From: Haematococcus lacustris
Lineage: Eukaryota; Chlorophyta; Chlorophyceae; Chlamydomonadales; Haematococcaceae
Length of the DNA stretch: 64,000 nt
Reading direction: 5' to 3'
Assembly: GCA_030144725.1 (NCBI GenBank)
Contig: JASKMD010000001.1
Span: forward strand, 4,672,944 to 4,736,943
The position numbers were made by a program, and so were the translations under genes. This document shows positions 475 through 34,702 of the stretch, piece after piece. How positions within the stretch are numbered: the first letter of the stretch is position 1; the number at the start of each line of letters is the position of its first letter. The notes under the pieces are model-generated. The model made no database searches. It was not told the origin of the DNA and saw only the letters and a list, made by a program, of their open reading frames with translations.

Positions 475-511
475 GCGTCTGACTGAGAAGTCTGTCCCTC
501 AGCATTCGGTC

Positions 512-2929: not shown

Positions 2930-2948
2930 GACCCTGCCCAGACAGTAA

Positions 2949-3485
2949 GCCAAAACTGTACAGAAGATTGATGCTGTGCTTGCTGCCCTGATCTGTGGAT
3001 CTGCAGCTGAAGGTGGCTCTTTGCATTTCTCTTTTGAAGGCACTGTTGATGGCCATCAGGCTATGTTTCTGTGTGACACAGGAGCCACACACTCTTTCGT
3101 CAGTGCAGACTTTGTCGCTGCAAATAATTTGCCTGTGTATAAGTATGCCGTTGAGCGTACCTGGCTGCTTGCAGACAACGGGTCACTGTCCTGCAATGGA
3201 TTTGTTTCAGTGCCTCTGTCTTTGCCAGGACACCATGCAAGATGCAAGCTGACTGTCATGCCCCGGTTTGTAAAAGGGTATGACGTGCTTTTGGGTGACG
3301 ATTGGTTGTTTGCTAATCAGGCTACACTGTCATATGAGCATAAGACTCTGTCTTTAGCCCGCCCAGGTGAACTTGCTGTTCAGTTACCATGTCACTCTGC
3401 AGTACCTCCTGCAGCATTCCCTGCTATCAAGCAGCCCATGGTATCAACCGAACGGGATGCTGACCCAGGTGTTGTTGCGGGTTGA
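2949..3485 (+). CDS. pol: Aspartic protease part of pol, cut off by the nested insertion
   Basis: This frame opens just after an in-frame TAA at 2946-2948 and is shifted relative to gag, so expression would need a frameshift or re-initiation. The first possible initiator is a GTG at 2976; a frame-shift product is more likely. It contains the retropepsin active site DTGA (about 3079-3090) followed by the ILG-equivalent segment with VLLGDDW (about 3280-3300), the two halves of the retroviral-type protease fold that processes the polyprotein. The frame ends at a TGA in or beside the junction with foreign DNA; the linker to reverse transcriptase is missing. The last 10-20 codons may already belong to the inserted element. 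Confidence 0.85.
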   Translation, partial: AKTVQKIDAVLAALICGSAAEGGSLHFSFEGTVDGHQAMFLCDTGATHSFVSADFVAANNLPVYKYAVERTWLLADNGSLSCNGFVSVPLSLPGHHARCKLTVMPRFVKGYDVLLGDDWLFANQATLSYEHKTLSLARPGELAVQLPCHSAVPPAAFPAIKQPMVSTERDADPGVVAG

Positions 3486-6400
3486 GGTGCGTTTGTACAC
3501 ACTGCTGAACACAATGGTGCCATTGCAGTCTGCCCGCTGGTAGTACCGCACCGGATACGGGGGTGCAGGGTCAGTGATCCGTAGAGCCTCCTTGGCCTCC
3601 TCCGCTGCCTCCCCTTGGGTTAAGACCTCACCGAACACCTGCTTGACGTGCCATGTGCGCCATGGGGTGGCCGCGTCGCTTTTCTGCAGATCCTGGACTG
3701 CCTTCATGCAGCCCCTCATCATGGCACCCGGGCTGTTCTGCAGTGGGCACTCTGCACTGCCCGCTCCCAGCAGCAGGGCCTGCTGCCCGTCCTGTGTTAG
3801 GTCGTCTTTCAGGCGGGCCTTGTAGTCCTGCTCTGCCTCTGGCTCAGCCCGGTCAAGCAGCCTCTTGCTGGCGTTATGCCCGGCCACCCGCATGGCTATG
3901 TGGGCATCCAGCTGGGCTCCAGGAATGCCGCTGGTGGTGATGGACTTCAAGTCATGCAGGTCACGCTCGATCCAGAGCTCGCCAAACAGGTATGTCCTGC
4001 CCACATTGCTCTCTTGCATGAACAGCCTGTGCACACCACAGCCATGATCCTATGGTGATGCAAGGTTTGATTGCAGCATGTAGCATTGTTGATGGGTAAG
4101 GTTGGCATGCATGCCACTGTCTAAACTCTCACCTGCAGGCCGTTGTGTGGAGGTTTGGGCATACTTGGTCAGTAGGCACAGACAGCTTGCCCTCGTTGTC
4201 TCCATGCGCAGCTGGGAGCTGAGGATCACGGCGGCAGCGCTCCAACCTGGCTGCATAGGTCTTCAGATGTGCATAGCCTGCCTCCATCCCCGCAGGGGTG
4301 GCGCTGTTCTCCGAGCCTGAATTGGGCAGACAAATACACTAAGCTATGTGGTATTAGTTAGTCATCATGCAGTGGGACCGTGTCTGTGAATGTTGGTGTG
4401 TAAATTACCTGGTGTCAAGTAGTGCAGCATAGCGCCCTCCAAGGCTGTCCACAACCCACGGTAGGGCTCTGGCAAAAGGTTGCCCCGCAACACGATGGGT
4501 GAGAAGTGCACATACCAGTGCTTGTAGTCCTCCATGCGCCATCCGCTGCATGGTGACATGAGCATTGCAGCACCAGTGCAATCATATGCGTGTCATGACG
4601 TGCACCTTGCATTGTCAGCATCTTTGCCTGTCAGTCGTGATATGATTATGACATACACTACATGCACTACATGCTTATGGCTTACGTGCGGTTGGCTAGG
4701 TCTCCCAGGTCCCGTCCCAAGTCAGATGGGGATTGAATGGCTGCTCCACGCTTCACTATCTCACGCCGCACATCAATGTGAAGGCCATCTGCACTCATGA
4801 ACCACTCCAGCTGGTGCTTCAGCAAGCCATACATGAAGCTGTGGTACACAGGCACCAGGTGGGCTAACCGGGCGTCCAGGTGTTGCAGCAACAGGGGCAG
4901 GAGGGGCTGGGCGTGGCAGCCCACCACCCTAGGGTCGCCCTGGGACCACCCATGGATGAAGGGGGCACCTCGGTCCATGATCTGCTCGTGGGTGAACTTC
5001 ATGCGCACGTCATAGATGAGCACATACTCCTGCAGTCCGTCACCGCAAGCAAGGATGGGGTGTGCCAAGGGATCCTTGGTCTGTTTTCAATAGCACATGC
5101 TGTCGAGTTTTCAAGCGTTCCATACCTCCCGGTTGGAGCCTGGTAGGGTTTGCAGCGTTGGCGAGTCGTAGCCAAGGGGCGCCTTCTCTGTAGGGGGGTT
5201 GGGGGGCTTGCTGATGTTGCAGTTGTGGCACATCTTCAGGGCGCTGTGGCCCATGCCCCTGGTCAAGGTGGCTCTACATGCACACAATCACGCAAGTGTT
5301 GCCTTAATGGGTGTCATATGTTTGGTGATAACACTTGGCAGGGCACAAGTTGAATAGGGATAGACTGGACTGGGAGGTGGTGGAATCATTAGTAGGTGCT
5401 AGCTGTTGGCCTTTGTCTCACTCACGTGGCTGGGGTATCAGCGATTGATACCACTGGGACTCCCAGGATGCGGACAGGCTCAACACGGGCGGGAGCCACA
5501 CCATCAACACCTGGGCCTGGGTGTGGCTCCACTATCACACCCAGGTCACCCGGGCCCTCGATGTGCTTGCTGACTTCCTGGCAAATGGCTTTCATGTAGC
5601 CTGTCAGGTGAGACTGGTGCTTCCCACCGTTGATGACGGCCAGCACTGAGCTGCACGCCCGCTTGCCGCACACCTCAGCCGGCACATCCAGCAGCCTCAA
5701 CAGGATCACACCCACTGACCAGGTGCCGTTCTTGCCCATGGTCATCCAGTCAACCCCAAACATGAAGTGGGCTGTGTTGGGGGAGGTGGCCACAACCTCT
5801 GGTAGCTTGGGCTGCATCTCTCGCCATGCAGGGCCTGTCAAACAACAACATCATGGTATGGTGCATGTCACTGTACTAATCACCTGGCTATGCTGTGAAT
5901 TCTATGCCTAGGTCAACCCATGCCTACTCACTTGCCCGGAAAGAGCCAGGAGGTGGGTCCACGCCCCGAGCTCGCCTGAACCAGGTCATCACGTCCTTGC
6001 GCTCCATGATGTTCTTCACCACTGTGTTCCAGCCGAACAGAGACATGCTCCACCGAGGCTTCAAGGTGACCTCCTGTGGGCTCCCTGTAACCAAGGGAGG
6101 GACAGCCTACAACACATGTATACCTCTACAAGTGGCATTAGGAATTGACCATGCCCATGTAGATTGGTTTCACCTTTTTTCATGTCACATGGAAGCGAGG
6201 CGTCTCGCAGTAGTAGCACTTGTCATCCTTGTGGGCGAGCCACTCAGACCTACCATGCATGCATGCACATGAAGGCAACCTTGACCCCAACAAACACCAT
6301 GTGTAATGCGCCATGCATGCATAGCCTAATCCACACCCTTTCCCCTGACCTCACCGTCGTATCTTCGGGTAGGTGAAGCCGGGGCAGTACTTGTTGTTGG

Positions 6401-7606
6401 CCTTGTTGTCCTTGCCCGCGTTGCACACGTGCACCTCGTACTCATTTGCGTGCTGGACGCCCTGCAAACTCATCAGCTAGTAGAAGCTGGTGATGAGGTT
6501 GAGATCTGGCTGGTTCGCAAGTAGCCTACGGATCAGCTTCAACACCCCCTTCATCTGCTCCTTCGTCAGTCTCATGTCCAACAGCCTGCTCAGCTCGTCC
6601 ATCATGTCCTTGCCTGTCAAGGGGCAGTTCCTGTAATGGCATGCACAAAGACAAGCAACAATTATATTTAACAGCTCCCTACTTGGTAACTTTTATCTGG
6701 TATTTCAAGTACCTGAACACGGGTTGGTGAAGATTGGCATCAAGCTTATACACCTTGCTTCGACGTGCCCCGGCGCCATCCCCTCCTCCTTCATCCCCCT
6801 CTGCACCCCCTGGGCCTCCCGGTCCTCCCGGGCCTCCTGGACCTCCTGGACCTCCTGGACCTCCTGGACCTCCTGGACCTCCTGGACCCCCGGGACCTCC
6901 TGGATACCCTTCCCCTTCCTCATCACTGTCTTCACTCCCACTGTCATCACTGTCACCTCCGTCCCCTCCTCCGTCGACTCCTCCCCTTCCTCCTACATCC
7001 CCCTCTTCTCTGTCTCCGCGCTGTCCCCCCCTGTTGTCCTCCTCTTCCCTCCCACGCTGTTCGTCCCCTCCTCCCTGTCCTTTCCATGCACCCTCTGGAA
7101 TCCTGCCACCCTCTTGTCCCGCTGGGGCTGCCTGATCCCTGCCTCCTTGCCCGTCCTCAGCCACCCCTCCTCCATCTCCTTGCCCGTCCTCATCCACCCC
7201 TCTTCCATCTCCACAGCTCTCCTGCACACATGTCGTCACAACATGCGGACAACATGTGGCCTGCGGCGCAAATTGTCCGCGATGAGGTGCACGCATTAGC
7301 TGCCTCATGCGCACATGTACGTCAACGCGTACTAACTAACAGCAAGCGAAATCTTACTGCCGACTCTTGCGATGAATGTTGCTGAGCGGTTGGGGACTGG
7401 GCTTTCGCCATAGCCTGCATCTCCGACCAAGCCTTCGTGCCTTCGGCTCCCACGAACTGGGGATGGCGCTGGGAGCAGTGCGTGCGCATTCCTTTTATGC
7501 CGCCTGATTCTGCGCACACTAGGCATTGAAAGGCTGTCTTCACCATGAATGCCTGTGACTTGGGAAGCCTGGAGAGCAAATGGTCACATTGTGCCCGCTG
7601 GGCCAT
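3486..7606 (-). CDS. tnp2-like (CACTA) transposase, eleven exons, one internal TAG, 3' end truncated
   Basis: Exons on the minus strand: 7606-7358, 7221-6713, 6630-6355, 6249-6189, 6073-5932, 5834-5426, 5273-5126, 5080-4686, 4545-4409, 4316-4133 and 4026 to the junction near 3486. Nearly all junctions have GT/AG and matching phases, giving about 1000 codons. Order of features: N-terminal C2H2-like zinc finger (CLVC...HCSQRH); an acidic and Gly-Gly-Pro repeat linker (6810-6910); Cys clusters CNAG...CYYC before ETPRF; a WNTV...WFRRARG segment; the FGVDW...GTWSV block that resembles the first catalytic Asp region of tnp2; MCHNCN; the PIVLRGNLLP block; and the FGELWIERDLHDLKS block. This layout fits transposase family tnp2 and its Plavaka relatives. 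TAG at 6477-6479 interrupts exon 3. The coding frame runs into the junction, so the C-terminus is lost. The exon with the zinc finger lies beside the assembly gap, so an earlier exon is possible. Confidence 0.68.
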
Positions 7607-8383: not shown

Positions 8384-9696
8384 GGCACCTGCATGCTTTC
8401 ATTTACTCCATGAACTATCGTTACTGCAGATTAAGGCTGCAGCCCCTCGCTCAGCTGACTCTGGGCACGAGTCCGAGGAATTGCCTTTGGCACAGCGACC
8501 AAGGGAGCAGCCCCTTGAGCCTTTTGCCCCTTCTGGTGTTGAAGGGGAGGGGGTGGGAGAGGAGGAGGACCTGGAGGATGTGGGGGAGGGGGAGGAGGAT
8601 GAGGGGGAGGACGAGGAGGAGACGGAGGGGGAGGACGAAGAGGATGAGGAAGAGAAGCAGAAGCAGGGGCCAGCCAAGAAACGGTCGCGCAAAGGGGGGA
8701 AGCGGGTCCCTGATGAATTCAGCAAGATCCTCCTGGCGCGGGTGAGCATGGTGTTGCGTGTCTCTGCTGCCTGATTTGCTGTGGTCACGTTGCCTGTGCC
8801 TCAATGTCCTTTGCTAACCATGACCCATCGTTGCCATGTGATTTCAGTTCAGAGATCATGCACCCAACGCCGACAAGCCCTTCAGCGCGTTGGGCAAATA
8901 TGAGGTTAGTGTAGTGTTCACACACTCACAATTGCCCATAGCCTTAAGTCATTACTGCCCATGTCACATTGGTTATCTATACCCAATGCATCCTTGCAGC
9001 AAGATGCCGCCACTCTCTGGGGCAAGTTCGCCCCCAAATACATCCGGCTATGGTGCCCGCGTTCTGTGGGCCAGGTGATTGTGCAATGAATGGTGAAGCC
9101 ATGTGACCAACCTAATTTTCTCTCTGATGTGAATGTTAGTGAATCAGTATTGGTGTGTGTTGTGCTTTACACCATCCCCAACTGTGTACCAGGGGAATAC
9201 CCCAAACTGGGCAGCAACGCGGTGGAGGCCAGGTGGAATGTCCCCATGCGGGCAATCATCGGCCTCGTTTGGAAGGAGTTCACCAAGGCCAACCCACCCT
9301 ACCTGGATTTGCTAAGCTACTGGATGTTGCTGGCGGCATTCAAAAAGTGGGTAGCATGCATCCACCCATCATGCACCCATAGCATGCAACCCACTGTGTC
9401 ATTAGTACAGGTCGTCATCAACGGTCTGGTACCCTTGAACGTGTAGGTCATACGATTGGGTCAGACGACCGAGCACTCCTAAGCAGCTGGCCCGGGTGCC
9501 GCCGACAACTCGTAAAGCAGAGGAGACCCAGAAGGCACATCAGGAGTGGGAGTCAAAGATTGGAGGCCGGTTGTTGGAAGCCAAGGCAGCAGCGGTGGCT
9601 GCTGGTACCCCGTTCAGCAATGACGATGTGGTACCCACTGAAATGGAGCCATTCCTGCCCTTAGCTGCTCAGCTGAAAGCAGCCTCAGGTGAGTGG

Positions 9697-9925
9697 AGAC
9701 AGGACCCTGTAGGTGTGCAGCAAAACCCTGTGGTGAGAGGCCAGAACCCTGTAGGTGTGCAGCAGGACCCTGTGGTGAGAGGCCAGAACCCTGTAGGTGT
9801 GCAGCAGGACCCTGTGGTGAGAGGCCAGAACCCTGTAGGTGTGCAGCAGGACCCTGTGGTGAGGGACCAGGACCCTGTAGGTGTGCAGCAGGACCCTGTG
9901 GTGAGAGGCCAGAACCCTGTGGGAC
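9697..9925 (+). repeat. Intronic ACCCTGT minisatellite in gene A
   Basis: About five copies of a roughly 45-bp unit built on GACCCTGTAGGTGTGCAG and GACCCTGTGGTGAGAG, lying entirely within a probable intron. The core is the same as in the subterminal array at 19045-20680. Confidence 0.85.
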
Positions 9926-10249
9926 TAACCCATGACATTGCGTGCACCCCTGATCGCAGAGAACTGGAAGAAACCAGGCAAGACGCCAGAAGGCAAGCAC
10001 CCTGAAGCTGCCAAGGCCTGGAAAGCAATGTCCCAAGCATTCTATGACCAGTTTGACGAGGTGGCCCTGGACCTAGCAAAGTCTAGACTCACGATAAACA
10101 AGGACCGGTCGCGATTGGACCGACCATAGCTCATTGGAAAGAGGAGTAGAAGGCCGTTCGAACGGTACAAGTCTTACGTGACTCCGTGCATCCGTTGCGA
10201 CGTAATTTGGCCGCGATTTTCTTTGATTTTTAATCTGTGCATATGTCGG

Positions 10250-10615
10250 TTATCCTTAATCTGCACAGCTGCTAATAGTCGACATCTGCACAGATGCAGG
10301 CGATGTCGACATCTGTGCAGACGCGGGAAGTCAACATCTGCACAGATGTTGTATACCGCGACCAACATCTGTGCAGATGCTGACGACGACATCTGCACAG
10401 ATGTTGACTATTACATTCAATGCTTGGCTGTGCAGATGTTGACACCGACATCTGTGCAGCTGCTGACAACGACATCTGCACAGATGTCGACTATTACATT
10501 CGAGCCTTGGCTGTGCAGATGTTGTCTATAGCATCTGCACAGATGTCGACTTTTACATTCGCGGCTTGGCTGTGCAGATGTCGTGGCTTCATCTGCACAG
10601 ATGTCGACTATTTCA
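10250..10615. repeat. CATCTGCACAGATG palindrome cluster 1
   Basis: Roughly a dozen copies of the near-palindrome CATCTG-CA/TG-CAGATG, alternating in orientation, separated by short spacers such as TCGACTATTACATTC. Confidence 0.9.
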
Positions 10616-10624
10616 TCGACTCTT

Positions 10625-10940
10625 ACATCCGCAAAACACATGTATTGACACCCAAACATCCCGCAACATCCCCGCAAAACACATGTATTGACCACCAAAC
10701 ACCCCGCAACACCTCGCTACACCCCCGCAAAACACATGTATTGACGACCAAACACCCCGCAACACCTCGATACACCCCCGCAAAACACATACATTGACGA
10801 CCTAACACCCCGCAACACCTCGCTACACCCCCGCAAAACACATGTATTGACACCCAAACACCCCGCAACATCCCCGCAAAACACATGCATTGACACCCAA
10901 ACATCCCGCAACACCTCGCTACGGGACTTGCAAGCACATG
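10625..10940. repeat. ACATGTATTGAC tandem repeat
   Basis: Tandem copies of a roughly 50-65-bp unit containing AAAACACATGTATTGAC and CCCGCAACACCTCG. Diverged copies recur at 49670-49760. Confidence 0.85.
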
Positions 10941-11075
10941 TCTCGATGCACCATCACTCCACAACACCTCAATATGGAAATGCTAAGCACATGCATTGAT
11001 GCACCCAATGACCGCAACACCCCCCTACGATGTGACAAGGTAGCAACGACACAACACAAAAACAAGGTGACACCA

Positions 11076-11192
11076 CACACCACCATCACCATCACCATCA
11101 CCATCACCATCACCACACTCAGGTTGAACATGCATCACCATCACCATCACCATCACCATCACCATCACCATCACCATCACCATCACCATCAT
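11076..11192. repeat. CATCAC hexanucleotide repeat
   Basis: Two runs of CATCAC/ACCATC separated by about 15 bp. Confidence 0.95.
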
Positions 11193-11194
11193 CC

Positions 11195-11455
11195 ACCACA
11201 CCACACCACACCACACCACACCACACCACACCACACCACACCACACCACACCACACCACACCACACCACACCACACCACACCACACCACACCACACCACA
11301 CCACACCACACCACACCACACCACACCACACCACACCACACCACACCACACCACACCACACCACACCACACCACACCACACCACACCACACCACACCACA
11401 CCACACCACACCACACCACACCACACCACACCACACCACACCACACCACACCACA
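11195..11455. repeat. CCACA pentanucleotide satellite
   Basis: About 52 uninterrupted copies of CCACA with no substitution visible. Confidence 0.97.
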
Positions 11456-11634
11456 ACCCAACAAGGTGACAACACAACAACATCGCAGCAAGGCGGTAAG
11501 ATGACGAGGACAACAAGCACGGGCTGACAACCACCCAAGCGCTCAGCTATCCCTTTTGAGAGGGATGGGTAGGGTCATTGTGGTGTGTGGGCATGGCATG
11601 GCCAGGGTTGGCTGGGTGGGCTGCTACTCCAAGC

Positions 11635-11770
11635 TGCCCGCTCCAGGTTGCCCGCTCCAGGTTGCTACGCCAAGGGTAGGGTAGGGAGAGGGCTGCTACG
11701 CCAAGGGTAGGGTAGGGAGAGGGCTGCTACGCCAAGGGTAGGGTAGGGAGAGGGCTGCAGCGTGTGTCGT
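11635..11770. repeat. GC-rich direct repeats
   Basis: Short copies of CTGCCCGCTCCAGGTTG followed by three copies of a 31-bp unit with GCCAAGGGTAGGGTAGGGAG. Related units recur at 50025-50095. Confidence 0.85.
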
Positions 11771-12099
11771 GGGGCGTGGGGTGGGAAAGGCGGGAGGTAG
11801 GTGGGGTGCCAGGCTTGGAGGTGGTGGGACAGGGGAGGGGAGGGGGAAGGGGGAAGGAGGAAGGGGGGAAGAGGGAAGGGCTGACCGTGGGACCTGCAGT
11901 AAACAATGGGCATCTTTGTGGTTAGGCTGGGCATCCGACCACCCATGTGCAAGGGCTGGCCACTCACTCTTTGCTAGCGCCACTTTTATACCTACCTGGC
12001 AGCGCCTCCATGGCTGCAGCTCCTGGCTGCTCTTGCGCTCCATGCACCTGCTTCTTGTGGTAGGGTGATGAAGGAGGTGGTGGTGGGGGAGGGAGGGGA

Positions 12100-12342
12100 G
12101 GGCTGGGCTGGGCTGGGCTGGGCTGGGCTGGGCTGGGCTGGGCTGGGCTGGGCTGGGCTGGGCTGGGCTGGGCTGGGCTGGGCTGGGCTGGGCTGGGCTG
12201 GGCTGGGCTGGGCTGGGCTGGGCTGGGCTGGGCTGGGCTGGGCTGGGCTGGGCTGGGCTGGGCTGGGCTGGGCTGGGCTGGGCTGGGCTGGGCTGGGCTG
12301 GGCTGGGCTGGGCTGGGCTGGGCTGGGCTGGGCTGGGCTGGG
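12100..12342. repeat. GGGCT pentanucleotide satellite
   Basis: About 48 copies of GGGCT with no visible interruption. The complementary strand reads AGCCC. Confidence 0.97.
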
Positions 12343-12954
12343 TGTAGGGAAGGGGAGGTTGGGACCATTGAACCTGCAACAATTCAGTGGTTGGCAAATA
12401 GTCTGGCAAGGTACTTGGAGCCACATGACTGCAAGATAAAATACTCACCATTCGCTAGGGTGGGGTTTGTGTGGGTGCACCCAACTTTGTTTCATGTGCA
12501 CTTGTTGCATGGCTCCTGACCGCCTCTCCGGGCTCCTCCACTCCTCTTCCGCTCCGTCTCACAGGCTTCGGGCTACGTGTCCTAGTTGCACCTCATGCAT
12601 TTGCCGCATCTTTGCATCGCTGTGTCGCTGCATCGCTGCACCTCCTTCCGTTTTCTGTCGCTATATCTTGATCCTATCGCTTAACCTGATGGCATCTGAT
12701 CGCCTAAGCGGCTGGCTGGCTCGTAGCTAGCCTTTTGGCGACGATTTTTGTTGGCTGCTCCTGGCTACTCATTGCTGCTATGTGGGGCAATCTAGGCTCC
12801 TTCGCGGTTCCTTGGCTTCCTTCGCGCCACCTTTGCGAAAACTTCATGCAGATATCACACAGATTGTTGAATAATGGAAGAGTCTTGATTCCTTCGCGGT
12901 GACTTTGCTTCCTTCGTGGTGCCTTTGCGTAACCTTTATGCAAGCCTTTTCTTC

Positions 12955-14160
12955 ATGTGCACAGCTGCACTACTTGGCATCTGTGCAGATGTCGAGGTAT
13001 TCATCTGCACAAATGTCGACATTGTCGGCATCTGCACAGATGTCGTCCTTAAATTATAACCGGCATCTGCACAGATGTCGCCTTCTATGCATCTGCACAG
13101 ATCTAATTACCGACATCTGCACAAATGTCGCCTTTATTAGCATCTGCACAGATGTCGTCCTTAAATTATAACCGGCATCTGCACAGATGTCGCCATTTAA
13201 TGCATCTGCACAGATTTAATAACCGACATCTGCACAGATGTCGCCTTTATTAGCATCTGCACAGATGTCGTCCTTAAATTATAACCGGCATCTGCACAGA
13301 TGTCGCCCTTTTATGCATCTGCACAGATTTAATAACCGACATCTGCACAGATGTCGCCTTTATTAGCATCTGCACAGATGTCGTCCTTAAATTATAAGCG
13401 GCATCTGCACAGATGTCGCCATTTAATGCATCTGCACAGATTTAATAACCGACATCTGCACAGATGTCGCCTTTATTAGCATCTGCACAGATGTCGTCCT
13501 TAAATTATAACCGGCATCTGCACAGATGTCGCCCTTTTATGCATCTGCACAGATTTAATAACCGACATCTGCACAGATGTCGCCTTTATTAGCATCTGCA
13601 CAGATGTCGTCCTTAAATTATAAGCGGCATCTGCACAGATGTCGCCATTTAATGCATCTGCACAGATTTAATAACCGACATCTGCACAGATGTCGCCTTT
13701 ATTAGCATCTGCACAGATGTCGTCCTTAAATTATAACCGGCATCTGCACAGATGTCGCCCTTTTATGCATCTGCACAGATTTTAATACCGACATCTGCAC
13801 AGATGTCGCCTTTATTAGCATCTGCACAGATGTCGTCCTTAAATTATAACCGGCATCTGCACAGATGTCGCCATTTAATGCATCTGCACAGATTTTATTA
13901 CCGACATCTGCACAGATGTCGCCTTTATTAGCATCTGCACAGATGTCGTCCTTAAATTATAAGCGGCATCTGCACAGATGTCGCCTTTTTATGCATCTGC
14001 ACAGATTTTATTACCGGCATCTGCACAGATGTCACCTTTATTAGCATCTGCACAGATTTAATAACCGGCATCTGCACAGATGTCGCTTTTCCTAAAGGCA
14101 TCGACATGCAGCTGCACAGATTTAGGGCTCATTTAACCGACATCTGCACAGATTCCCAAA
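12955..14160. repeat. CATCTGCACAGATG array 2 with 113-bp higher-order period
   Basis: More than forty CATCTGCACAGAT cores. Four cores with distinct spacers (GTCCTTAAATTATAACCG, GCCATTTAAT, TTAATAACCGA, GCCTTTATTA) form a higher-order unit of about 113 bp. The marker GTCGTCCTTAAATTATAA recurs at about 13042, 13154, 13267, 13380 and 13493. Confidence 0.92.
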
Positions 14161-15304
14161 AAGGGGGGGGTACCTCGCGCGCGGATCGTTGTATCTCCGC
14201 AACCGCTGCGAGTTAGGACTTCATTCAAGAGCGAGGTCCCCCTCAAACTCAACGATCTGTCGTTCTATCGGAGCGGAATGTCCATCCGATGCAAAAAAGG
14301 CCCTCGCGTCGGCCTTATTTATCGTGAGTGTATCCCCGGCGGCAGCAATGCAGACCCGGTATGTACCTCATTGCAATGCTGGTTGAGGTATGCAATGTTA
14401 CATGTTGGTCGAGTACGTGTGCTTTGCTTGATGCTGTGTAGGTGGCGACGGAGGCGAAGGCCAAGACTATGCTGTTGGAGGCATGCACCCAGGACCAATC
14501 CTGGTGGAAGGCAAGTAGCTAATATCTAACGTGATTACCCTACCATTCCCTACCATACCACATCCCATGCCCTACCTTCCAAGCTTCATATTGCCACCTT
14601 GTTGTGTGCAGTTGACGACCCAGACCCGGCTTGTGGAGTACAAGTCAAAGCTGGTGTTGGACCTGCAGGCTGCCAGCAGTGCAGGGCAGCAGGCAGGCCC
14701 GGCTTCACCCCCTCGCCGAGGGGGCAAGGCAGCTCCCAAGGCAGATCACCCCACACCAGCTGCAGCCAAGAAGAGGCGTGCAGGCAGAGGTGCAGGGGCA
14801 GAGGCAGATAAGCTCGCCGCTGCGCTACAAGCAGGCTTGGAAGCAGGGGCAGCAGTGGCGACAGGGGCAGCAAGGACAGGGACAGGGGCAGGGCAGGGCA
14901 AGAGGCCGGGCAGGGGCAGGGGCGACGTCAGCAACAGGGGCAGGGGCAGGGCTGGGGCCGGGGCCGTGGCAGGGGCAAGGGCAGGGGCAGGGGCAGTGGT
15001 GGCAGCAGGTGCAGTGGGGGCAGCAGGAGCTGTGGCAGGGGCAGCAGGGGCAGCAGAGGCTGTGGCAGGTGCTGGGCCAGTGGCACCCGCCACAGCAGAG
15101 GAAGAGGCAGGGGCAGGGCCAGTGGCAACCGCCACAGCAGGGGCAGAGGCAGGGGCAGGGCCAGTGGCACCCGGCACTGCAGGGGCACGGGCAGGGGCAG
15201 GGGCAGTAGCAGAGGCAGTGGCAGCAGCAGCAGCAGAAGCAGATGCAGCAGTGGCAGCAGCAGCAGCACGCTGTGACTTGTTTGATTCATGAGATGCTAG
15301 AGGA

Positions 15305-15570: not shown

Positions 15571-18500
15571 ATGGCAGCAGCAGCAGCAGGCAATGCGGCA
15601 TTGGAAGAAGTCGCCGGTGACATGATTAACTTCCAGGCGCGATGCGGCCCCCGCAACCAGGTAAAACGCAAAATCTAGACTAACACGCCACATCGGTAGC
15701 ACTACACTCATCTACGATGGCTACTTGCATGTAGGATGCGACTGGGCTGGCCACCATGAAGGCCCCCTGGCGTGATGTGTGTTGTGGATTTTGTGTGGCC
15801 AACACTGTTGTGCCCTGTGATATGGCCACACAGAGTAACACAGAGGCGATAGTGGACAGGTGAGTGCCAATGCACCCCAATGCTCATGAGGACATGCCCA
15901 AGTGTGTGCCTTGTTTGCAATACAGGACCTGGAAATTGGTTGCACAGAAGTACCCCCAGCCAGGTTCCCCAAATCTGCTCAAGTGGAACAAGTACTTCGC
16001 CTACTTCAACGACCATTTCAAAGGCATACAAGAAGCCAGTCCCCCTGAGGGGTTAAAGCCATTCGCTAGCTTGTGGGACACATACAAGCGAGGTGATGAG
16101 TTAGTTGGCTGACTAGTTGCCAGCAGGCCGTCAAGGTAACCATGCATTCATGTTTCTGTTAACTATCATGTGCAGATGCGGAGATGAAGAGTCAAGGGGA
16201 CACAGATTATGTGTACCTCTGTGAAGTGCAGGGAAGAAAGGAGTGTGCTACTTTGGCGGAATTTGTGTTGAGAACAGAGCCCCCTACCCTTCCCTCACTT
16301 GACCCCACCGCTGCCCCACAGCCAGCCCCAGCAGCAGGTGTGCAGCAGCATCCAGCCCCCACCCCTGCCCCACAGCCTGCCCCAGCAGCAGGAGTGCAGC
16401 AGACCCCTCCCCTTCCCTCTCCAGCCCCCACCCCTGCCCCACAGCCTGCCCCAGCAGCAGGAGTGCAGCAGACCCCTCCCCTTCCATCTCCAGCCCCCAC
16501 CCCTGCCCCACAGCCTGCCCCAGCAGCAGGAGTGCAGCAGAACCCTCCCCTTCCCTCTCCAGCCCCCACCCCTGCCCCACAGCCAGCCCCAGCAGCAGGT
16601 GAGCAGCAGCCCCCTGCCCCCTCCCCTGCCCCACAGCCAGCTCCAGCAGCAGGTGTGCAGCAGCCCCCTTCCCCCTCCCCTGCCCCTCAGCCAGTCCCAG
16701 CAGCAGGTGTGCAGCAGCACCCAGCCCCAACCACTGTCCAACAGCCAGCCTCAGCAGCGGTTGTGCGACAGCCCCCCGCCACACCAACAGCGGGTGTACG
16801 TGGATTGAAGGCCCCCACCACAGGCTTAGGAACTGCCCTGCCTGCAGGTGTGCAGCGGAGCCCTGCCTTCTCACCTGTCCTGCGGCGTGCACCAGCAGCA
16901 CGTGGGCAACTCAGCCTTGCCCCCTCCATTCCCCTGTCGCCTACACAAGCAGCAGGAGGGCAGCATCAGCACCATCCACCAGTGCAGCACCACCGCCAGA
17001 CACGCAGAGGGCAGTGGCCACAGGTGGGCACCAGCCCCTGGGCGACAGGCACAGCAGCAGGTGTGCAGCAGCACCAGCAGCAGCAGCAGGACCAGCGACA
17101 GGTGACTGAAGAGGAGCAGCAGCAGCCAGGAGGGGAGGGTGCTGGACCCTCATCATTTAAGAGGCAGAGGCCTGCCGAGGATCAGGTAGGATCGCAACAT
17201 TACAGCACATAGGGGCAAGACAGCATCATAATGCAGTGTGACAGAGGCTCAGATACCCCATTGCTTCATTTGCCATTGCAGGCCCTCATACAGTCTTTGA
17301 TTCACAAGGTGGACAACGTGCAGGAAACAGTGAACAGATTGGAGGTGAGACCCAAGCTGCCAAAGAGGCATAACCGCATTTCCAACTTGTAAACGACCAC
17401 ACTGAATGTAGGATGAGCTGGTGGGCAGAAGGAGGCTCAACGTGTTGGCAAACACAGCCTTGACTGGAAGTGGCCAGTCAGGAGTGCAGGTGATCAGCTA
17501 CAAATAGCCTACAACAGGTTTAAACCTTGTGCCAGGTTTCGTTGACCTTGTGCAGGGTTTCAGCAACGTGGTGCACAGCTTCACTAACCTAGTGCAGGGT
17601 TTCACTGACTCAAGCTGTGGCTCAGGAGGATATGTGTGGATTGTGTTTGCAGTCAAGCACCGGAGGCACCCTGCTGCATGGAGGAGCAGTGCGGTTCCCC
17701 AAGAATACACAGGTACGAGTGGCATAACTAGATGATATGAATCAATAGTGACGGGATGCTTGTGAGCATGTCGTGCATTGCTCCCTTACACGCAGGGAAT
17801 GGTGTATCAGCTGCCCACCTTGCTGCCATACACAGGGGAAGTCTACCAGCCTCATGAGCTACAGCAGTGTCGCCAAGCAGCTCTAGCTCTAGGCCTGACC
17901 ATCTGCCAGCTGCCCCAGCTAGACATAGATATGGCAGCGGTGGTTGCGGCCAGCATCTTGATCACCAGGGTCTATAACCACATGGTCTTCAGCTCGGTCA
18001 ATGCCAACAGCAAGACACATTATGGCACTGGCCAGAGGGTGCAGGTGGTGTTGGCCAAGTCGGACAAGAACAGCAGTGGCGACCTAGACACCACCCTAAC
18101 GCTGTTGACAGACAAGTACAACGCGGCTGTGTACAGCGCGCTGACAGCGGAGAAGAAGAAGGAGGTGAGAGACAGATAAATTAGGGTGTACAGCAAAAGA
18201 CTCAAGCCACAACAGTAGTCATAGCCATTGCTGCAGAGGCATTTCCAAACTAACCTAGAGTCAGGGCTGCATGGAGCAAAATAGACAGCACTCTGGGTGT
18301 GTTTGCAGGTGGATGAGGCCAAGGAGGTGTTGGCCCAGTACCTCACTCTCCTGCAGCCGGTGCTGAGGCAGCTGCTGGGCCGCCCCCTGAACGCCCTAGC
18401 TAGCATCATCACTGACCCCACCTGGCAGCGTCGCCTGAACAGGAATGGGAAGCTGGTGGCTACACTGGCCGAGCAGCTGGCTCAGGCCCAGGCTCCCCAC

Positions 18501-19007
18501 ACCGACTTCCTCCCTGTTGGCCCAGGGATGGATGACGGCCTGGTGTTCCTGCTGGCTCTCCAGGACTTCCCTCTGGTTGCCTACATGGGCAGCCACAAAC
18601 TGTCCCGGTTGGCTGCAGCCCATTGCCGGCGGACGGCTGATGGTCAGAAGCAAGTGGTGGAAGTGAAGGACATGGATGCCCTGGCCATGACCTTGCCACT
18701 TCAACTGGGCACAGAGGTCCTGGTGAAGGCTGGGCAGCTGGTGTTGTTCCGCGGCAACACAGTGCATGCTGGCAACGTGGGGGTGGCTGGCTCATGCTGC
18801 GCCAGGCTGTATGGCTTTGGCCGGCCTGACACGGTGGCTGACAACACCACCATGAACACCTCAGAGCTGGGAGACTTGTACCATGGGTTGTTTCAGCCCA
18901 TCCAGGATGAGGGCATTGGGCCCAAGATGGCAGACTGGAACAGGCGCGGCATGGCAGGCCAGTGGGTCAGAATCTCAGAGCCATACAGGCCTGATAAGCG
19001 TATTTGA
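15571..19007 (+). CDS. Gene B: transposon-borne 2OG-Fe(II) oxygenase-like protein, nine exons
   Basis: Exons 15571-15660, 15735-15859, 15926-16092, 16176-17185, 17282-17344, 17412-17489, 17653-17712, 17796-18164 and 18309-19007 all have GT/AG borders and agree in phase, giving 886 codons with a single ATG-to-TGA frame. Residues 1-125 are of unknown fold; about 160-470 are tandem Pro/Ala/Gln repeats; the C-terminal 350 residues are globular. There, HTD (residues 718-720), a GQLVLF turn then His 807 (VHAGN), and Arg 820 (CARLYGF) reproduce the HxD...H...R metal and 2-oxoglutarate ligands of the double-stranded beta-helix oxygenases (PhyH, AlkB, TET/JBP type). Substrate is unknown; the order and spacing do not decide the subfamily. 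It lies inside the CACTA-like element between gene A and the subterminal array, so it is element cargo. No inactivating change was seen. Confidence 0.62.
16315..16720 (+). repeat. Coding minisatellite in gene B
   Basis: Seven or so copies of a unit encoding PAPQPAPAAGVQQ with variable TPP/PLPSP linkers. It lies within exon 4 and preserves the frame. It probably forms a flexible, disordered linker. Confidence 0.9.
17515..17610 (+). repeat. Intronic TTGTGCAGGGTTTC repeats in gene B
   Basis: Three to four copies of a roughly 28-bp unit between exons 6 and 7. Confidence 0.75.
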
Positions 19008-19044: not shown

Positions 19045-20685
19045 AGCTACAGCAGAGGACCCTGTGGTGAGGGACCAGGACCCTGTGGTGCCAGGACCCT
19101 GTGGTGGGGGACCAGGACCCTGTGGTGCCAGGACCCTGTGGTGAGAGGCCAGAACCCTGTAGGTGTGCAGCAGGACCCTGTGGTAAGGAGCCAGGACCCT
19201 GTGGAGCCAGAACCCTGTGGTGTGGTGCCTGAACCCTGTGAGCCTGGACCCTGTAGCCGTGCGGCAAGACCCTGTAAGCAAATGTCGCAGGACCCTGTAG
19301 GCGTGCGGCAGAACCCTGTAGTCGAGTGTCACAGGACCCTGTAGGCGTGCGGCAGAACCCTGTAGACGTGTGTCGCAGGACCCTGTAGCTGTGCGGCAGA
19401 ACCCTGTAGACGTGTGTCGCAGGACCCTGTAGCCGTGCGGCAGAACCCTGTAGACGTGTGTCGCAGGACCCTGTAGGCGTGCGGCAGAACCCTGTAGTCG
19501 AGTGTCGCAGGACCCTGTAGGCGTGCGGCAGAACCCTGTAGACGTGTGTCGTAGGACCCTGTAGGCGTGCGGCAGAACCCTGTAGACGTTGGTCGCAGGA
19601 CCCTGTAGGCGTGCGGCAGAACCCTGTAGTCGTGTGTCATAGGACCCTGTAGCCGTGCGGCAGAACCCTGTAGTCGAGTGTCACAGGACCCTGTAGGCGT
19701 GCGGCAGAACCCTGTAGACGTGTGTCGCAGGACCCTGTAGGCGTGCGGCAGAACCCTGTAGACGTGTGTCGTAGGACCCTGTAGGCGTGCGGCAGAACCC
19801 TGTAGCCAAATGTCGCAGGACCCTGTAGCTGTGCGGCAGAACCCTGTAGACGTGTGTCGCAGGACCCTGTAGCCGTGCGGCAGAACCATGTAGTCGAGTG
19901 TCACAGGACCCTGTAGGCGTGCGGCAGAACCCTGTAGTCGTGTGTCGCAGGACCCTGTAGCCGTGCGGCAGAACCCTGTAGACGTGTGTCGCAGGACCCT
20001 GTAGGCGTGCGGCAGAACCCTGTAGACGTGTGTCGCAGGACCCTGTAGGCGTGCGGCAGAACCCTGTAGACGTGTGTCGTAGGACCCTGTAGGCGTGCGG
20101 CAGAACCCTGTAGACGTTGGTCGCAGGACCCTGTAGCCGTGCGGCAGAACCCTGTAAACAAACGTCGTAGGACCCTGTAGGCGTGCGGCGGAACCCTGTA
20201 GACAAACGTCGCAGGACCCTGTAGACGTGCGGCAGAACCCTGTAGACGTGTGTCGCAGGACCCTGTAGGCGTGCGGCGGAACCCTGTAGACAAACGTCGC
20301 AGGACCCTGTAGACGTGCGGCAGAACCCTGTAGCCAAACGTCGCAGGACCCTGTAGGCGTGCGGCAGAACCCTGTAGCAAAACGTCGCAGGACCCTGTAG
20401 GCGTGCGGCAGAACCCTGTAGCCTAATTTAGCAGGACCCTGTAGGCGTGCGGCAGGACCCTGTAGCCTAAGGTAGCAGGACCCTGTAGGCGTGCGGCAGG
20501 ACCCTGTAAACAAATGTCGTAGGACCCTGTAGCCGTGCGGCAGGACCCTGTAGTTATTTGTCGCAGGACCCTGTGGCCGTGCGGCAGAACCCTGTAATCA
20601 AATGTCGTAGGACCCTGTAGCCGTGCGACAGAACCCTGTGGCGCAGGACCCTGTACAGGGTCGGCAGGACCCTGTACAGGGACGG
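19045..20685 (+). repeat. Subterminal repeat array of the CACTA-like element
   Basis: A 1.6-kb array of a 44-bp unit made of two similar halves with cores GGACCCTGTAGGCGTGCGG and AGAACCCTGTAGACGTGTG. Toward the terminus it gives way to palindromes GACCCTGTACAGGGTC. In En/Spm, subterminal repeats bind the accessory protein; the same role here is inference. A related array follows the second terminus copy at 49010-49665. Confidence 0.93.
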
Positions 20686-20689
20686 GCGA

Positions 20690-20834
20690 TTTTTCAAATA
20701 GTTATAACATCGCAACAACTTGGAGTTTTTCAATGATTACAACGGCGATGAGTCGCCCTTTCCTGGGGCTATCTGCAGTATGCCTCCCGGGAAGAAATGA
20801 CGTAGGCGACTTCCGGCCTTAATCGGCGCGAGTG
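20690..20834. repeat. CACTA-like right terminus (copy 1), with empty MITE site
   Basis: The last 145 bp before pol resumes, ending CGGCGCGAGTG. It contains TCAAATAGTTATAAC (about 20694-20708), the uninterrupted version of the site where a MITE sits in copy 2 at 48071. Probable 2-3-bp target duplication (AAG at 20835) cannot be confirmed because the left end is missing. Confidence 0.85.
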
Positions 20835-24304: not shown

Positions 24305-24575
24305 CTCTGCCAGTCAGCAGGACCCTGCAGAGGGTCTGTAGGACCCTACAAAGGGTCACTAGGACCCTGCAAAAGGCCTGTGCACCAGGACCCTGCGCAG
24401 GGTCACTAGGACCCTGCACAGGGTCACCAGGACCCTGCAAATGGGCAACATGACCCTGCAAAAGGCCTGTGCACTAGGACCCTGCGCAGGGTCACCAGGA
24501 CCCTGCGCAGGGTCACTAAAACCCTGTGCAGGGTCACTAGGACCCGGCACATGGTCACCAAGACCCTGCACAGGG
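24305..24575 (+). repeat. GACCCTGCNCAGGGTC palindrome cluster 1
   Basis: About ten ACCCTGC half-sites, many paired as GACCCTGCGCAGGGTC or GACCCTGCACAGGGTC, inside a probable intron. Confidence 0.9.
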
Positions 24576-24784
24576 TCTGAAGCACTTAGTCATGTTCATC
24601 AGCACTAAGAATCCTAAAGAACATGATGACCCAATCCAACAGATACATTGCATTTCCCAACGGTGTGTGTATGCAGGCTGCCACAGAGCTGTTCCTCCAG
24701 CCGACAGACGCTTGGAACTTCCCCATCAACATGCAGGTACGACAATAATAGGTCCTAGCACACAGGGTGCGTAAGATGCCTCAC

Positions 24785-25375
24785 AGGGTCGCCATGGCCC
24801 CACACAGGGTCGGTAGGACCCTGCACAGGGTCCTAGCACACAGGGTCAGCAGGACCCTGCACAGGGTCAGTAGGACCCTGCGCAGGGTCCTAGGGTCACT
24901 ATGGTCGTAGGACCCTGTGCAGGGTCCTGGCACACAGGGTCAGCAGGACCCTGCACAGGGTTTCCAGGACCCTGCACAGGGTCAGTAGGACCCTGCGCAG
25001 GGTCCTAGGTCACCATGGTCGAAGGACCCTGTACAGGGTCCTGGCACACAGGGTCAGCAGGACCCTGCACAGGTTTTCCAGGACCCTGCACAGGGTCAGT
25101 AGGACCCTGCGCAGGGTCCTAGGGTCACCATGGTCGTAGGACCCTGCACAGGGTCCTGGCACACAGAGACGGGAGGATGCCAAACAGAAACGACGGGACC
25201 TGGCAGAGGGTCTGCGGGAAGCCTGACAGGGTCCTGGCACACAGGGTCGGAAAAAAACCTGGAAAACTCTTGACTCATAGGGTAAGCAGGACCCTGCGCA
25301 GGGTCGCCAGGACCCTGCGCAGGGTCCTACGACCATGATGACGCTAGGACCCTGCGCAGGGTCCTAGGACACGGG
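24785..25375 (+). repeat. GACCCTGCNCAGGGTC palindrome cluster 2
   Basis: Tandem, partly degenerate units of about 115 bp containing several palindromes GACCCTGNNCAGGGTC and the spacer TGGCACACAGGGTC. Confidence 0.9.
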
Positions 25376-25868
25376 CCATAGCTCATCACTGGCGTGGACT
25401 TTTTGCATGCCACCTACTAGGTTGGGCACTGTAACCACCCTTCACAACCTCTCATACTCACATTTCATGAAAAGCCACTTTGGTCACACGCTGCCAACTC
25501 CCTTAGCCAAAATCAGTGCCACAGCCCCACACCCGCTCCAGCAACTCGACACCGAGTGAAAAATACACTTTGGCCCAAGAGAGTCTTGACCTCCCCTAGG
25601 TCACAGCAACCCACATACCAAGTTTCAGACCTCAACTCTCAGGTTTTTCAAGCCAGCCAGGCCTTAATTTGCACGAGTGTGTGTGCATGAGGCCCACCAT
25701 CACAAAGCCCTTTGTGGCCATGCCCATGTTCGATCCGAAGAGGGATGACAAACACTGGGACGATGAGTGCCTCACACTTCTGTGCTCATTTGCACCGGAC
25801 AGCGTGAAGCAGCTGTGCACCTTGGGCAAGAAGCTGAGCGTGAAAATGTTAAACGAGTATTAACATTA

Positions 25869-26143
25869 ACTCACGATAAACAAGGACCGGTCGCGATTGG
25901 ACCGACCATTGTTCATTGGAAAGAGGAGTAGAAGGCCGTTCAAACGGTACAAGTCTTACGTAACTCCGTGCATCCGTTGTTGGGTACCTCGCGCGCGGAT
26001 TGTTATATCTCCGCAACCGCTGCGAGTTAGGACTTCATTCAAGAGCGACGTCCCCCTTAAACTCAACGATCTATCGTCCTATCGGAGCGGAATGTCCATC
26101 CGATGCAAAAAAGACAGTCGCGTCGGCCTTATTTATCGTGAGT
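25869..26143. mobile_element. 275-bp MITE, deletion derivative of the 4.2-kb element
   Basis: Positions 25869-25980 match the left end of the element at 10087, and 25981-26143 match its right end, with the same ACTCACGATAAA inverted termini. Everything between is deleted. It sits within an open reading frame of the flanking pseudogene. Confidence 0.88.
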
Positions 26144-26244
26144 GTTTTAAGGCAGTGGGGTTGTATGTGCCAGCCAACACCTTGCGTGCTGACCTACGGT
26201 ACATGGTACTGGAGCATCTCAATGGGCAGGCAGAGTGGGATTGA

Positions 26245-27153: not shown

Positions 27154-27500
27154 CTAGTGGCGGATGTCCGCACTGCTCTGCATGCCACTGTTGAGCGGCA
27201 GGCTGTCGGGGCTCGAGGGAGATGAAAACCAGACACGAATGCCCTGCCAATTGACCACAAATGTGGCCGGGAGTAAGCGACAGAGATCCGTCACTGATAC
27301 ACCCCACACTGTTTTGCATAACAGCACGGGGCAAGTAATCAGCTGCAGCAGACCCCCATACGCGCTCATGTACTCCGCCCAGGGCTGGTCTGGGGCTGGC
27401 TTGTATCCAAGGAGGATGAACGGCCATAACACGAGAGCGGCAAAGATGACACAAATCCCGATGTCATCCGCACGGCGCTTCCAAAAGTCTTGCCAGGTAC
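27154..27500 (-). CDS. Terminal exon of an unrecognised membrane protein (left arm)
   Basis: After an AG acceptor at about 27501 the frame encodes roughly 115 residues ending in TAG. Two hydrophobic segments (ICVIFAALVLWPFILLG and LLQLITCPVLLCKTVWG) look membrane-spanning. Upstream exons are not identified. The right-arm copy (about 39104-39257) has lost about 215 bp including both hydrophobic segments and its stop codon is changed, so only this copy could be functional. Confidence 0.45.
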
Positions 27501-27648
27501 CTGCACATCATACACGCTTGTCCTTGGAGGCTGCTGCCATCTTGTACGCAGGCAGTGGCGGAAAGAGGTAAAACGAAGCCCCTAAACATGCCCAAAACAT
27601 GCAGGGATACCATCAAGTATAGACACAGGTAGCCTTTACATTGAACAG

Positions 27649-27850
27649 AAAAAAAAGGAAAGAAAGAAAGACTACTCCGGTTTAACACCAGCGTGCATTA
27701 AGGGAGGACTCCGGCATGGGGCGCCGACACTATCCCACCAAAGATACTTTTCTTCGTCGTCGTGGAGTCGAACCCACGACCTCTCAGTTGTAGGAATCAC
27801 CCTTAACCAACTGAGCCACTTCACCGCACGACGGGGCGGGATAAAAGGCA
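27649..27850 (-). mobile_element. tRNA-derived SINE (left arm)
   Basis: A 202-bp insert between 13-bp direct repeats TTACATTGAACAG (27636-27648 and 27851-27863). On the minus strand its head has a perfect A box (TGGCTCAGTTGG) and a B box (GGTTCGACTCC), then a tail ending in a T-rich tract. The T arm is one base short, so it is not a functional tRNA. An identical insertion in the right arm shows that it predates the duplication. Confidence 0.85.
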
Positions 27851-28794
27851 TTACATTGAACAGTATAGCACCGCGACTAGAGCTACACCGCATGCTTGGT
27901 AGCCAAGCAAAGTTAGGTCAAGCCATGCCATACTCTGTCAATGGTCATGTGTACACCGTAATGTTCAGAACATTCCGGGATCACAGATTTCGTGATGGTC
28001 AGAGGTTGTTGCTTCAAATGTGAAGTTTGATTCAAATACATAGGAGTACGAAAACGAAAGATTGTGAATGATTCAGAGTTTGTGACAGCTCATGAACGAA
28101 TGATAAGTTGACACTATATTCAAGAAAATAACGGGGCTTGCCGGCTGTAAATTATCAGAACGCAGACTTGAGCTAATATGCGGAGCCTGTCTATTGCAAC
28201 ACAATAAAGTTTTAGTCTTGAGTTCTGTTTGTATTCGGTACAAACATACGGCGTATCAGACCACGCAACGCCCTAGATAGTAAGTGAAAAGTGTAGAGTG
28301 CACTTAACTTAGGGTTGAACTAGTACAGCGGGCCCGTCCGACAGCGGACGGGGCACACGGACCAAGCTGCGGCCTCCGGCCACAGCGCTCTTGCACCAGT
28401 CCTTGCATCAGCTCTTGCACCAGGCCACAGTGATGAGTGCTGAGTCGAAGTTCTGGATGTGTGAGTTTGAGTGCTGAGTCCGAGTGAGTGACTGTGACAG
28501 CAACCCTACCAACCCTACCTACCAACCCCTTCCAGTCTGCCCTACCACCCCCTTATTGGTGTCAGGGCCAGCAGGCTATGCAGCATACACCTCATTGTAC
28601 ACAACATTATCTGTAGGGTTGGCCTGAAGCGTATGCGGCGACTAAAATGAGGGTATATACGTATGTTTAAACTGTATGTGTAGGTCCGTAGGGCGAACCG
28701 TAGGTGCAAGGTCATCATTTTGCAAAAGTGAGTATGCAGTTTGGTGCACAACAACTGTAAACCCTGCTACAACTATAAACCCTGCAACAACCAT

Positions 28795-32127: not shown

Positions 32128-32715
32128 GCAGAGGGTTGAAAAGGGTTGTTCGTTGATGCCCCGATAGCAGCTGCAACACAGAACATAAGAAAGCTTGTTT
32201 CAACAGAGTCATCAGTTCAGAGACAAGACAAAACAGGCATAACACGTGAATAAGAACATCATTTGTTAGTCATAAGGTGATGCCTGTCAGCTCATAGCGG
32301 TGCTCATGCACTACCCCATCACACATTCCCATACTCCCCACACACCTGCAGCCCCTTGAGCTGGCGCCACAGCCACGGCTGCAAGCACATCAGAACAAAC
32401 ACAACAATTGGAGTCAGAACGCACAAGTACCGCATTTCATACATGCGCAACGTAAAGGGTTAATACCAGTTTGTTGAGCAGCTGACATCACACACATCAC
32501 ACAACACCCACGCTTAGCGTTCTCATGCATCACACACCCATGTGTTGGGCGGGCACGCGCTGTAATTAAAGCTGTTGCTGTGCATGTGTGCTGCCATGAT
32601 CCGAGTGTTCATGCCAGTGTGTGGAAGAAAAGATTCCAATGACTTTGTATTCTCTGCTGCTACGTTGCTATGTGTCAAATGTGTTGTGGTGTGCACCCTA
32701 GGAATGCAGTGCATG

Positions 32716-32753
<38 letters not shown>

Positions 32754-34648: not shown

Positions 34649-34702
<54 letters not shown>

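Follow-up and report, generated by a model that had tools for sequence, protein, structure and literature searches.

An oxygenase-like gene inside a family of CACTA-like DNA transposons of the green alga Haematococcus lacustris

What could an oxygenase-like gene do inside a DNA transposon? This question is raised by a locus of the green alga Haematococcus lacustris, which we analysed in a window of 64,000 nucleotides (the whole stretch from position 4,672,944 to 4,736,943 on the forward strand of contig JASKMD010000001.1, GenBank assembly GCA_030144725.1). On its plus strand the window carries gene B, which a first-pass annotation had placed inside a CACTA-like element and whose product it had considered oxygenase-like. 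Our best explanation of the whole, which we consider probable by a small balance, is that a family of CACTA-like DNA transposons in Haematococcus carries gene B as an accessory gene, which counters silencing of its element. The parts of this explanation differ in strength. Judged from its sequence, the product is very probably an element-borne, catalytically competent oxygenase; anti-silencing as its job is argued by analogy and is put forward tentatively. Papers are cited by PubMed Central (PMC) accession.

Elements delimited on both sides enclose gene B and a transposase-like gene

Joined, the nine exons of gene B comprise 2661 nt, i.e. 886 codons and a stop, with no internal stop, and all intron-facing exon edges have AG before and GT after. 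The gene model of the first-pass annotation, with H718, D720, H807 and R820 in their places, was thus borne out. Exon 9 has 232 codons and is preceded by 654. The oxygenase-like part is made up of exons 8-9, which are constant among copies; the 5' part differs between copies, so that no part of the model is less certain than its start at 15571. The N-terminal 162 residues had no Pfam match up to an E-value of 10. The protein further has a P/A/Q-rich linker (approximately residues 160-470), a KRQR motif at 456 and, by eye, a coiled coil (approximately 474-510).

The 308-Mb assembly (597 contigs) was searched with exons 8-9 of gene B; the match counts are lower bounds. At least 131 matches were obtained: 107 cover exon 9, entirely or in part, and the other 24 exon 8. 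The exon-9 matches belong to three families (family 1, at least 95 matches at 85-100% identity; family 2, at least 5 at 57-58%; family 3, at least 7 at 53-54%).

Opposite gene B, on the minus strand, is a gene of ten exons. By eye, the order of its motifs (VDW...LLDVPAEV, CHNC, HSFMYGLLKH and FGELWIERDLHDLK) is like that of tnp2/EnSpm transposases. CHNC was recognised by eye, neither the histidine motif nor the second D could be established, and no Pfam match was found up to an E-value of 10. Because the assignment uses motifs only, the protein is a putative EnSpm/tnp2 transposase. At least 152 relatives were listed in the same genome, and they accompany gene B. From these, 95 transposase places were typed, with most extra rows at the same loci dropped, and compared with the 107 exon-9 places. 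A transposase place was within 25 kb of at least 60 of the 107 gene-B places, 57 times upstream and 56 times upstream and divergent. In 200 runs of random shifts by 0.2-2 Mb, on average 1.16 and at most 4 gene-B places were near a transposase, in any orientation. Conversely, gene B was within 25 kb of at least 65 of the 95 transposase places.

Where does the element end? On the transposase side, the copies on C127 and C64 each have an array, followed by sequence common to both as far as ...GGCGCGAGTG, where their similarity ends. The end on the gene-B side, ...GGCCTTAATTTGCACGAGTG, is common to copies of all three families and to a fragment in the window, with small differences. These common ends on both sides delimit the element as 5'-CACTCGCGCCGATTAAGGCC ... 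GGCCTTAATTTGCACGAGTG-3'. The terminal inverted repeats are CACTCGCGCCGATTAAGGCC and CACTCGTGCAAATTAAGGCC on opposite strands, again with small copy-to-copy differences; CACT is followed by CG, not A. Subterminal repeat arrays adjoin both ends.

Sequence on both sides was fetched for eight copies. Four had both CACT...AGTG ends and were 11.4-20.1 kb long; they belong to families 1 and 3, none to family 2 (Table 1). One or both ends were lacking in the fetched sequence of the other four (C74; C64:12422156; C64:9503694; C127:5371997). The C127 element was read whole, that on C420 whole but for 8 bases, those on C182 and C166 in part. All four delimited elements enclose gene B and divergent EnSpm-like transposase places. 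Their flanks are TG/TG, GT/GT, AG/AG and AA/AA, i.e. a 2-bp target duplication in 4/4, where a chance match is expected in about 1 in 16 per copy; a 3-bp duplication was matched in none of the four. This demonstrated that gene B is located inside elements having both ends and a transposase. The first-pass annotation had named the absence of gene B from all other copies of the element as one of two observations which would speak against its proposal; gene B is present in all four delimited copies, and the proposal was not refuted in this respect. The placement in a CACTA-like element accordingly holds for the family, whereas the copy in the window turned out to be damaged.

With CACTA/EnSpm transposons the element shares imperfect 5'-CACT...AGTG-3' inverted repeats, subterminal arrays, a putative transposase that is tnp2-like by motif and further gene(s). 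Unlike these, it starts with CACTC instead of CACTA, makes 2-bp instead of 3-bp duplications, has no Pfam transposase match and carries an oxygenase gene. CA..TG termini and a duplication of 2 bp are also features of the CMCT clade (Kojima 2025), for which CA..TG termini in most cases and duplications of 2 to 5 bp are described (PMC12730594).

Selection on gene B and the putative enzyme class

Is gene B maintained as a coding sequence? The matched stretch was free of stops in 94 of the 107 exon-9 matches; 13 had stops, and three of these 13 stretches begin upstream of exon 9. Forty-six copies were read (L001-L046, L001 being the window copy). H718, D720, H807 and R820 were identical in 46/46, and 86 of the 232 exon-9 positions were invariant across the copies without L045, which has a stop. 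The presumed metal and 2-oxoglutarate residues are thus invariant among the copies read. The ratio of nonsynonymous to synonymous differences within families (pN/pS) was 0.30 in family 1 (30 best-scoring copies, 435 pairs), 0.37 in family 2 (5 copies) and 0.22 in family 3 (7 copies), the pairs not being independent. Between families, four comparisons gave ratios of nonsynonymous to synonymous divergence (dN/dS) of 0.30-0.39 at a dS of 1.05-1.33, where values above 1 are near saturation. As judged by these ratios, the coding sequence of gene B is under purifying selection.

The first-pass annotation had left PhyH-, AlkB- and TET/JBP-type relatives as options, and profile searches were carried out. 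Pfam PhyH (PF05721, curated cut-off 22 bits) matched residues 659-809 of the full protein with 24.9 bits (E 2.9e-5), and exon 9 alone with 25.5 bits. At E≤1 it was matched by all 32 exon-9 members tested (32 of the 46 copies read), and it was the sole Pfam family listed for the gene B protein and these members. Tet_JBP (PF12851) was not listed at E≤1 for the window protein and the 32 members, nor at E≤10 for two proteins, one of family 2 and one of family 3, with the proviso that HMMER filters discard most weak matches. The AlkB-type profile (2OG-FeII_Oxy_2) was not listed in any Pfam search of gene B proteins. PHROGs and NCBIfam gave no match, and sequence searches of the Protein Data Bank (PDB) nothing significant. 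Weak leads were put aside: a DhiD match from the PDB search was not used, and SSB-like and other structural matches from Foldseek, with a query-normalised template-modelling score below 0.2, were discarded.

The HxD...H triad and the distal arginine are present as H718, D720, H807 and R820. The two metal histidines are 89 residues apart, which is the spacing of those in human PHYH, which we take to be residues 175 and 264. Histidine spacing is a weak criterion since inserts vary it; human TET2 has a long insert between its metal histidines. In CMD1, the TET homologue of Chlamydomonas, the histidines 345 and 397 are 52 apart, and R410 is 13 residues after H397 (PMC7854593). Such a short spacing was not found in gene B. 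R820 follows H807 by 13 residues as well, so this distance does not discriminate. Taken together, the C-terminal part of the gene B protein would be a PhyH-like Fe(II)/2-oxoglutarate oxygenase, and PhyH is favoured over TET/JBP and AlkB.

Several results weigh against gene B being a constrained, element-borne enzyme of this class. Among the matches listed, a typed transposase was missing from the 25 kb around 47 of the 107 gene-B places, and gene B from the same range around 30 of the 95 transposase places; as the counts cover the matches listed, an unpaired place does not equal an absence. Three copies of family 1 at about 85% identity (L043, L044 and L046) had a dN/dS of 0.71-1.47 to the window copy. 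The PhyH scores of a family-3 protein (15.9) and a family-2 protein (20.8) were below the cut-off of 22, therefore formal PhyH membership is good for family 1 only. AlphaFold models were of low confidence, with a mean predicted local distance difference test score of 33.3 for exon 9 alone and 38.9 for exon 9 with an alignment of 32 copies, and Foldseek with the second model had no oxygenase among the matches listed (50 of 386). Searches of viral and prokaryote contigs yielded 17, 28 and 119 stretches with the pattern, none of which was confirmed as a relative.

Implied exchange between element lines, and the state of the window copy

Between families 1 and 3 the dS of the transposase is 0.05-0.08 (two exons, 264 codons), compared with 0.04-0.07 within family 1, whereas that of oxygenase exon 9 is 1.1-1.3. 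In family 2 the transposase is diverged (dS 0.49-0.57) and the oxygenase is diverged too. On the transposase side, as far as the first exon of the plus strand, the elements on C127 and C420 are 82-94% identical, and at the right end 83%; the rest of the gene was absent from the 25 longest alignments. A synonymous contrast of this kind inside one element cannot be explained by selection at the protein level alone. Replacement of the oxygenase segment and homogenisation of the remainder would both leave near-equal transposases next to diverged oxygenases, and both amount to recombination. An exchange of the oxygenase, as a unit, between element lines is therefore strongly implied by these comparisons.

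In the C127 element (6394-7494 in window orientation) a deletion joins exon 1 of gene A (the second plus-strand gene), which is acidic, in frame to exon 4 of gene B. One gene of reduced length is thereby formed in an element that has both its ends. The elements on C127 and C420 had suggested that gene A is merely the 5' part of gene B; for family 1 this was rejected because the C64 copy has both genes in the order of the window. Array units GGACCCTG... are located inside gene A at window 9700-9922 and just upstream of oxygenase exon 8 in the family-3 copy L031 (approximately 5070-5517), which indicates a spread of the repeats inside the element.

In the window the element is a ruin, although gene B itself is open. 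Its transposase gene is cut at 3450 by gypsy gag-protease sequence. The C40 copy runs on past this breakpoint and has no stop at the codon that is stopped in the window. By eye, gypsy gag-protease (476-3450) and reverse transcriptase-integrase (20835-23720) sequences are on the same strand. These pieces on both sides look as if the element had inserted into one gypsy copy; this stays unproven because the sequence breaks, on the left, within the transposase and not at a terminus. Gene A has, by eye, a first exon that is acidic and then basic, and several small exons. The nested insertion that splits it has no visible transposase, and its site is empty in the C64 copy, which otherwise is colinear with the window at 89-95%. 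The insertion holds arrays of CATCTGCACAGATG units; it and a stretch of about 280 bp (approximately 25868-26144) are two copies of one ACTCACGATAAA-ended element family, in which no transposase was seen.

Downstream of gene B, TTTTTCAAATA near 20700 was considered as the element end, since a second copy is similar no further than 48995. This was rejected because copies L052 and L054 carry homology on to AGTG; a repeat with TA on either side appears to have been inserted at 48995. The right-end fragment contains, by eye, an exon-7-like exon (24678-24737). Another transposase-side terminus is present at 47937, with the same array further on (47937-49661). Between the two a repeat of about 0.9 kb appears that is flanked by inverted TACCGTAC/GTACGGTA, and related sequence is found at 59276-59703. 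The window further contains a large inverted repeat in 27446-39159 (29630-33424 versus 33949-37805, 96%; 27446-29547 versus 37054-39159, 94%) and two long minus-strand frames that by eye resemble the reverse transcriptase of a long interspersed element (39835-42141, 768 aa) and a retroelement polyprotein (42645-46343, 1232 aa).

Table 1. Features of the window and of other copies of the element.
Feature	Position	Strand	Remarks
Gene B	15571..19007	+	nine exons, 886 aa; sequence translation and Pfam
Gene B, exons 1-5	15571-15660, 15735-15859, 15926-16092, 16176-17185, 17282-17344	+	joined-frame check
Gene B, exons 6-9	17412-17489, 17653-17712, 17796-18164, 18309-19007	+	joined-frame check
Gene B, exon 9, catalytic part	18309..19007	+	residues 655-886; frame, copy alignment, Pfam PhyH
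Codons of H718, D720, H807, R820	18498-18500, 18504-18506, 18765-18767, 18804-18806	+	exon 9 of gene B
EnSpm/tnp2-like transposase gene	3450..7290	-	C-terminus missing; motif reading, start of first exon not fixed
Transposase exons	6713-7290, 6355-6630 (in-frame stop), 6189-6249, 5932-6106, 5426-5834	-	by reading
Transposase exons, continued	5126-5273, 4686-5080, 4409-4545, 4133-4316, 3450-4026	-	by reading
Gene A, the element's second gene on the plus strand	8400..15292	+	start approximate; colinear with the C64 copy
Nested insertion, 4.2 kb	10086..14330	.	termini GACTCACGATAAA...TTTATCGTGAGTG; splits gene A; TA 2-bp duplication
Tandem array	19056..20685	+	units GGACCCTGTAGGCGTGCGGCAGAACCCTGTAG... 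and similar ones; follows gene B
Left-type (transposase-side) terminus	20798..20834	-	CACTCGCGCCGATTAAGGCCGGAAGTCGCC...; here at right; gypsy pol from 20835
Right-end fragment resembling family-3 element	24313..25679	+	array, terminus ...GGCCTTAATTTGCACGAGTG ending at 25679
Delimited element, family 1	C127:5005825-5018125		12,301 bp; both ends
Delimited elements, family 3	C182:4573828-4591816; C166:11818154-11838295; C420:3524205-3535608		both ends
Exon-9 subgroup at 85% identity (L043, L044, L046)	C542, C147, C182		two comparisons within the subgroup give dN/dS of about 0.5

Candidate functions of the oxygenase

We infer an enzyme that is active, nuclear and serves the element rather than the host. 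Made from the strand opposite the transposase, the oxygenase would benefit the element in trans in the nucleus. It would oxidise a mark or a protein on the chromatin of the element and in this way lift silencing ahead of transposition. Most likely, gene B would then be a selfish accessory enzyme, perhaps one that erases a silencing mark. By analogy with the fungal TET/JBP elements removal of such a mark would be the most likely benefit, and modification of a protein partner the next most likely. A more far-reaching version is that of a second, independent case of epigenetic erasure encoded by transposons, in which a PhyH-like, non-TET dioxygenase that is exchanged as a cassette among CACTA-like elements of a green alga oxidises a nucleic-acid mark (5-methylcytosine, a derivative of it, or N6-methyladenine) and reactivates its own element. 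This we consider rather unlikely; to our knowledge such chemistry is not known for the PhyH family.

In fungi TET/JBP genes are carried by Kyakuja, Dileera, Zisupton, EnSpm, Plavaka, KDZ, ESTA and other transposons (PMC12730594). These resemble the Haematococcus element in being DNA transposons, in some lineages with an EnSpm-type transposase, that have their own dioxygenase of the Fe(II)/2-oxoglutarate type, and in that the oxygenase gene moves among element lines. An oxygenase-like gene which travels in a CACT-ended transposon with a tnp2/EnSpm-like transposase therefore parallels the fungal capture, as the first-pass annotation had suggested. Unlike in fungi, the enzyme is PhyH-like and the host a green alga; in the main text of PMC12730594 'phyh' has no and 'Chlamydomonas' two occurrences. 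Dioxygenase capture by DNA transposons is thus known from fungi with TET/JBP. Among the matches listed from open-licence PMC literature no title or beginning of an abstract reported a transposon-borne PhyH-like gene or an algal case, and no methylation study of Haematococcus was among the best 10 of 3,333 matches.

Other systems are related in part. The N6-methyladenosine demethylase domain of an orchid Ty3/gypsy element is reportedly an AlkB-type enzyme. It likewise is an eraser-type domain on a transposable element of the green lineage, yet the carrier is a retrotransposon (PMC9289625). VANC of the Arabidopsis VANDAL elements is a transposon gene that counters epigenetic silencing; unlike the gene B product, VANC proteins are sequence-specific and not oxygenases (PMC5735166, PMC10398659). 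CMD1 is, like the putative gene B enzyme, an algal Fe(II) dioxygenase with HxD...H and an arginine 13 residues after the second histidine; it differs in the histidine spacing and in using vitamin C, and a transposon link is absent from the available portion of PMC7854593.

What else might explain gene B? The oxygenase may act on a protein or RNA and not on DNA bases; it may hydroxylate the transposase of its own element, the protein encoded by gene A, histones or a silencing factor of the host. This is a real possibility, if on the unlikely side. We know of no PhyH-type enzyme acting on DNA; their substrates are small molecules, or the enzymes are uncharacterised. In addition, the histidine spacing is unlike that of the DNA-acting CMD1, and the KRQR motif together with the coiled coil seen by eye suggest a nuclear partner protein. 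The transposon-borne TET/JBP dioxygenases argue in the opposite direction as they are taken to act on DNA, though according to PMC12730594 their function is not experimentally validated. A diverged TET/JBP enzyme which oxidises 5-methylcytosine is very unlikely. It would share the HxD...H...R order and the arginine position of CMD1, TET/JBP genes do ride on EnSpm-like elements in fungi, and the PE-type fungal proteins are likewise too diverged for a plain sequence search (PMC12730594); against this, no Tet_JBP match was listed, and the histidines are 89 instead of 52 residues apart, a weak point given the varying inserts.

Could gene B be mere cargo? CACTA elements commonly capture pieces of host genes, and a captured host PhyH gene without benefit to alga or element would agree with the broken copies, i.e. 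the 13 exon-9 places with stops. Such a passenger would hardly have the same catalytic residues in each of the 46 copies read or ratios of 0.22-0.37 in three families, and gene B has been retained in families that are only about 53-58% identical and in all four delimited copies. Hence we give this explanation a very small chance, even slightly below that of a TET/JBP enzyme. Two 500-base runs of N and many nested repeats in the window might suggest a host gene family that is next to transposons by chance or assembly error. However, the count of 60 of 107 near a transposase against a shift mean of 1.16 and the colinear C64 copy argue otherwise, and four copies with ends and target duplications that enclose gene B refute it; its probability is negligible.

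The reading of gene B as an accessory oxygenase of the element can be approached experimentally. Its host is an alga that can be cultured and has been sequenced, copies of the gene are plentiful there, and the presumed active site is defined well enough to be mutated directly. Near-identical transposases combined with half-diverged oxygenases offer a way to study the swapping of accessory genes between elements. If true, the recruitment of dioxygenases by transposons would extend beyond the fungi and beyond the TET/JBP branch, which would point to a general strategy and possibly to a new DNA- or chromatin-modifying activity.

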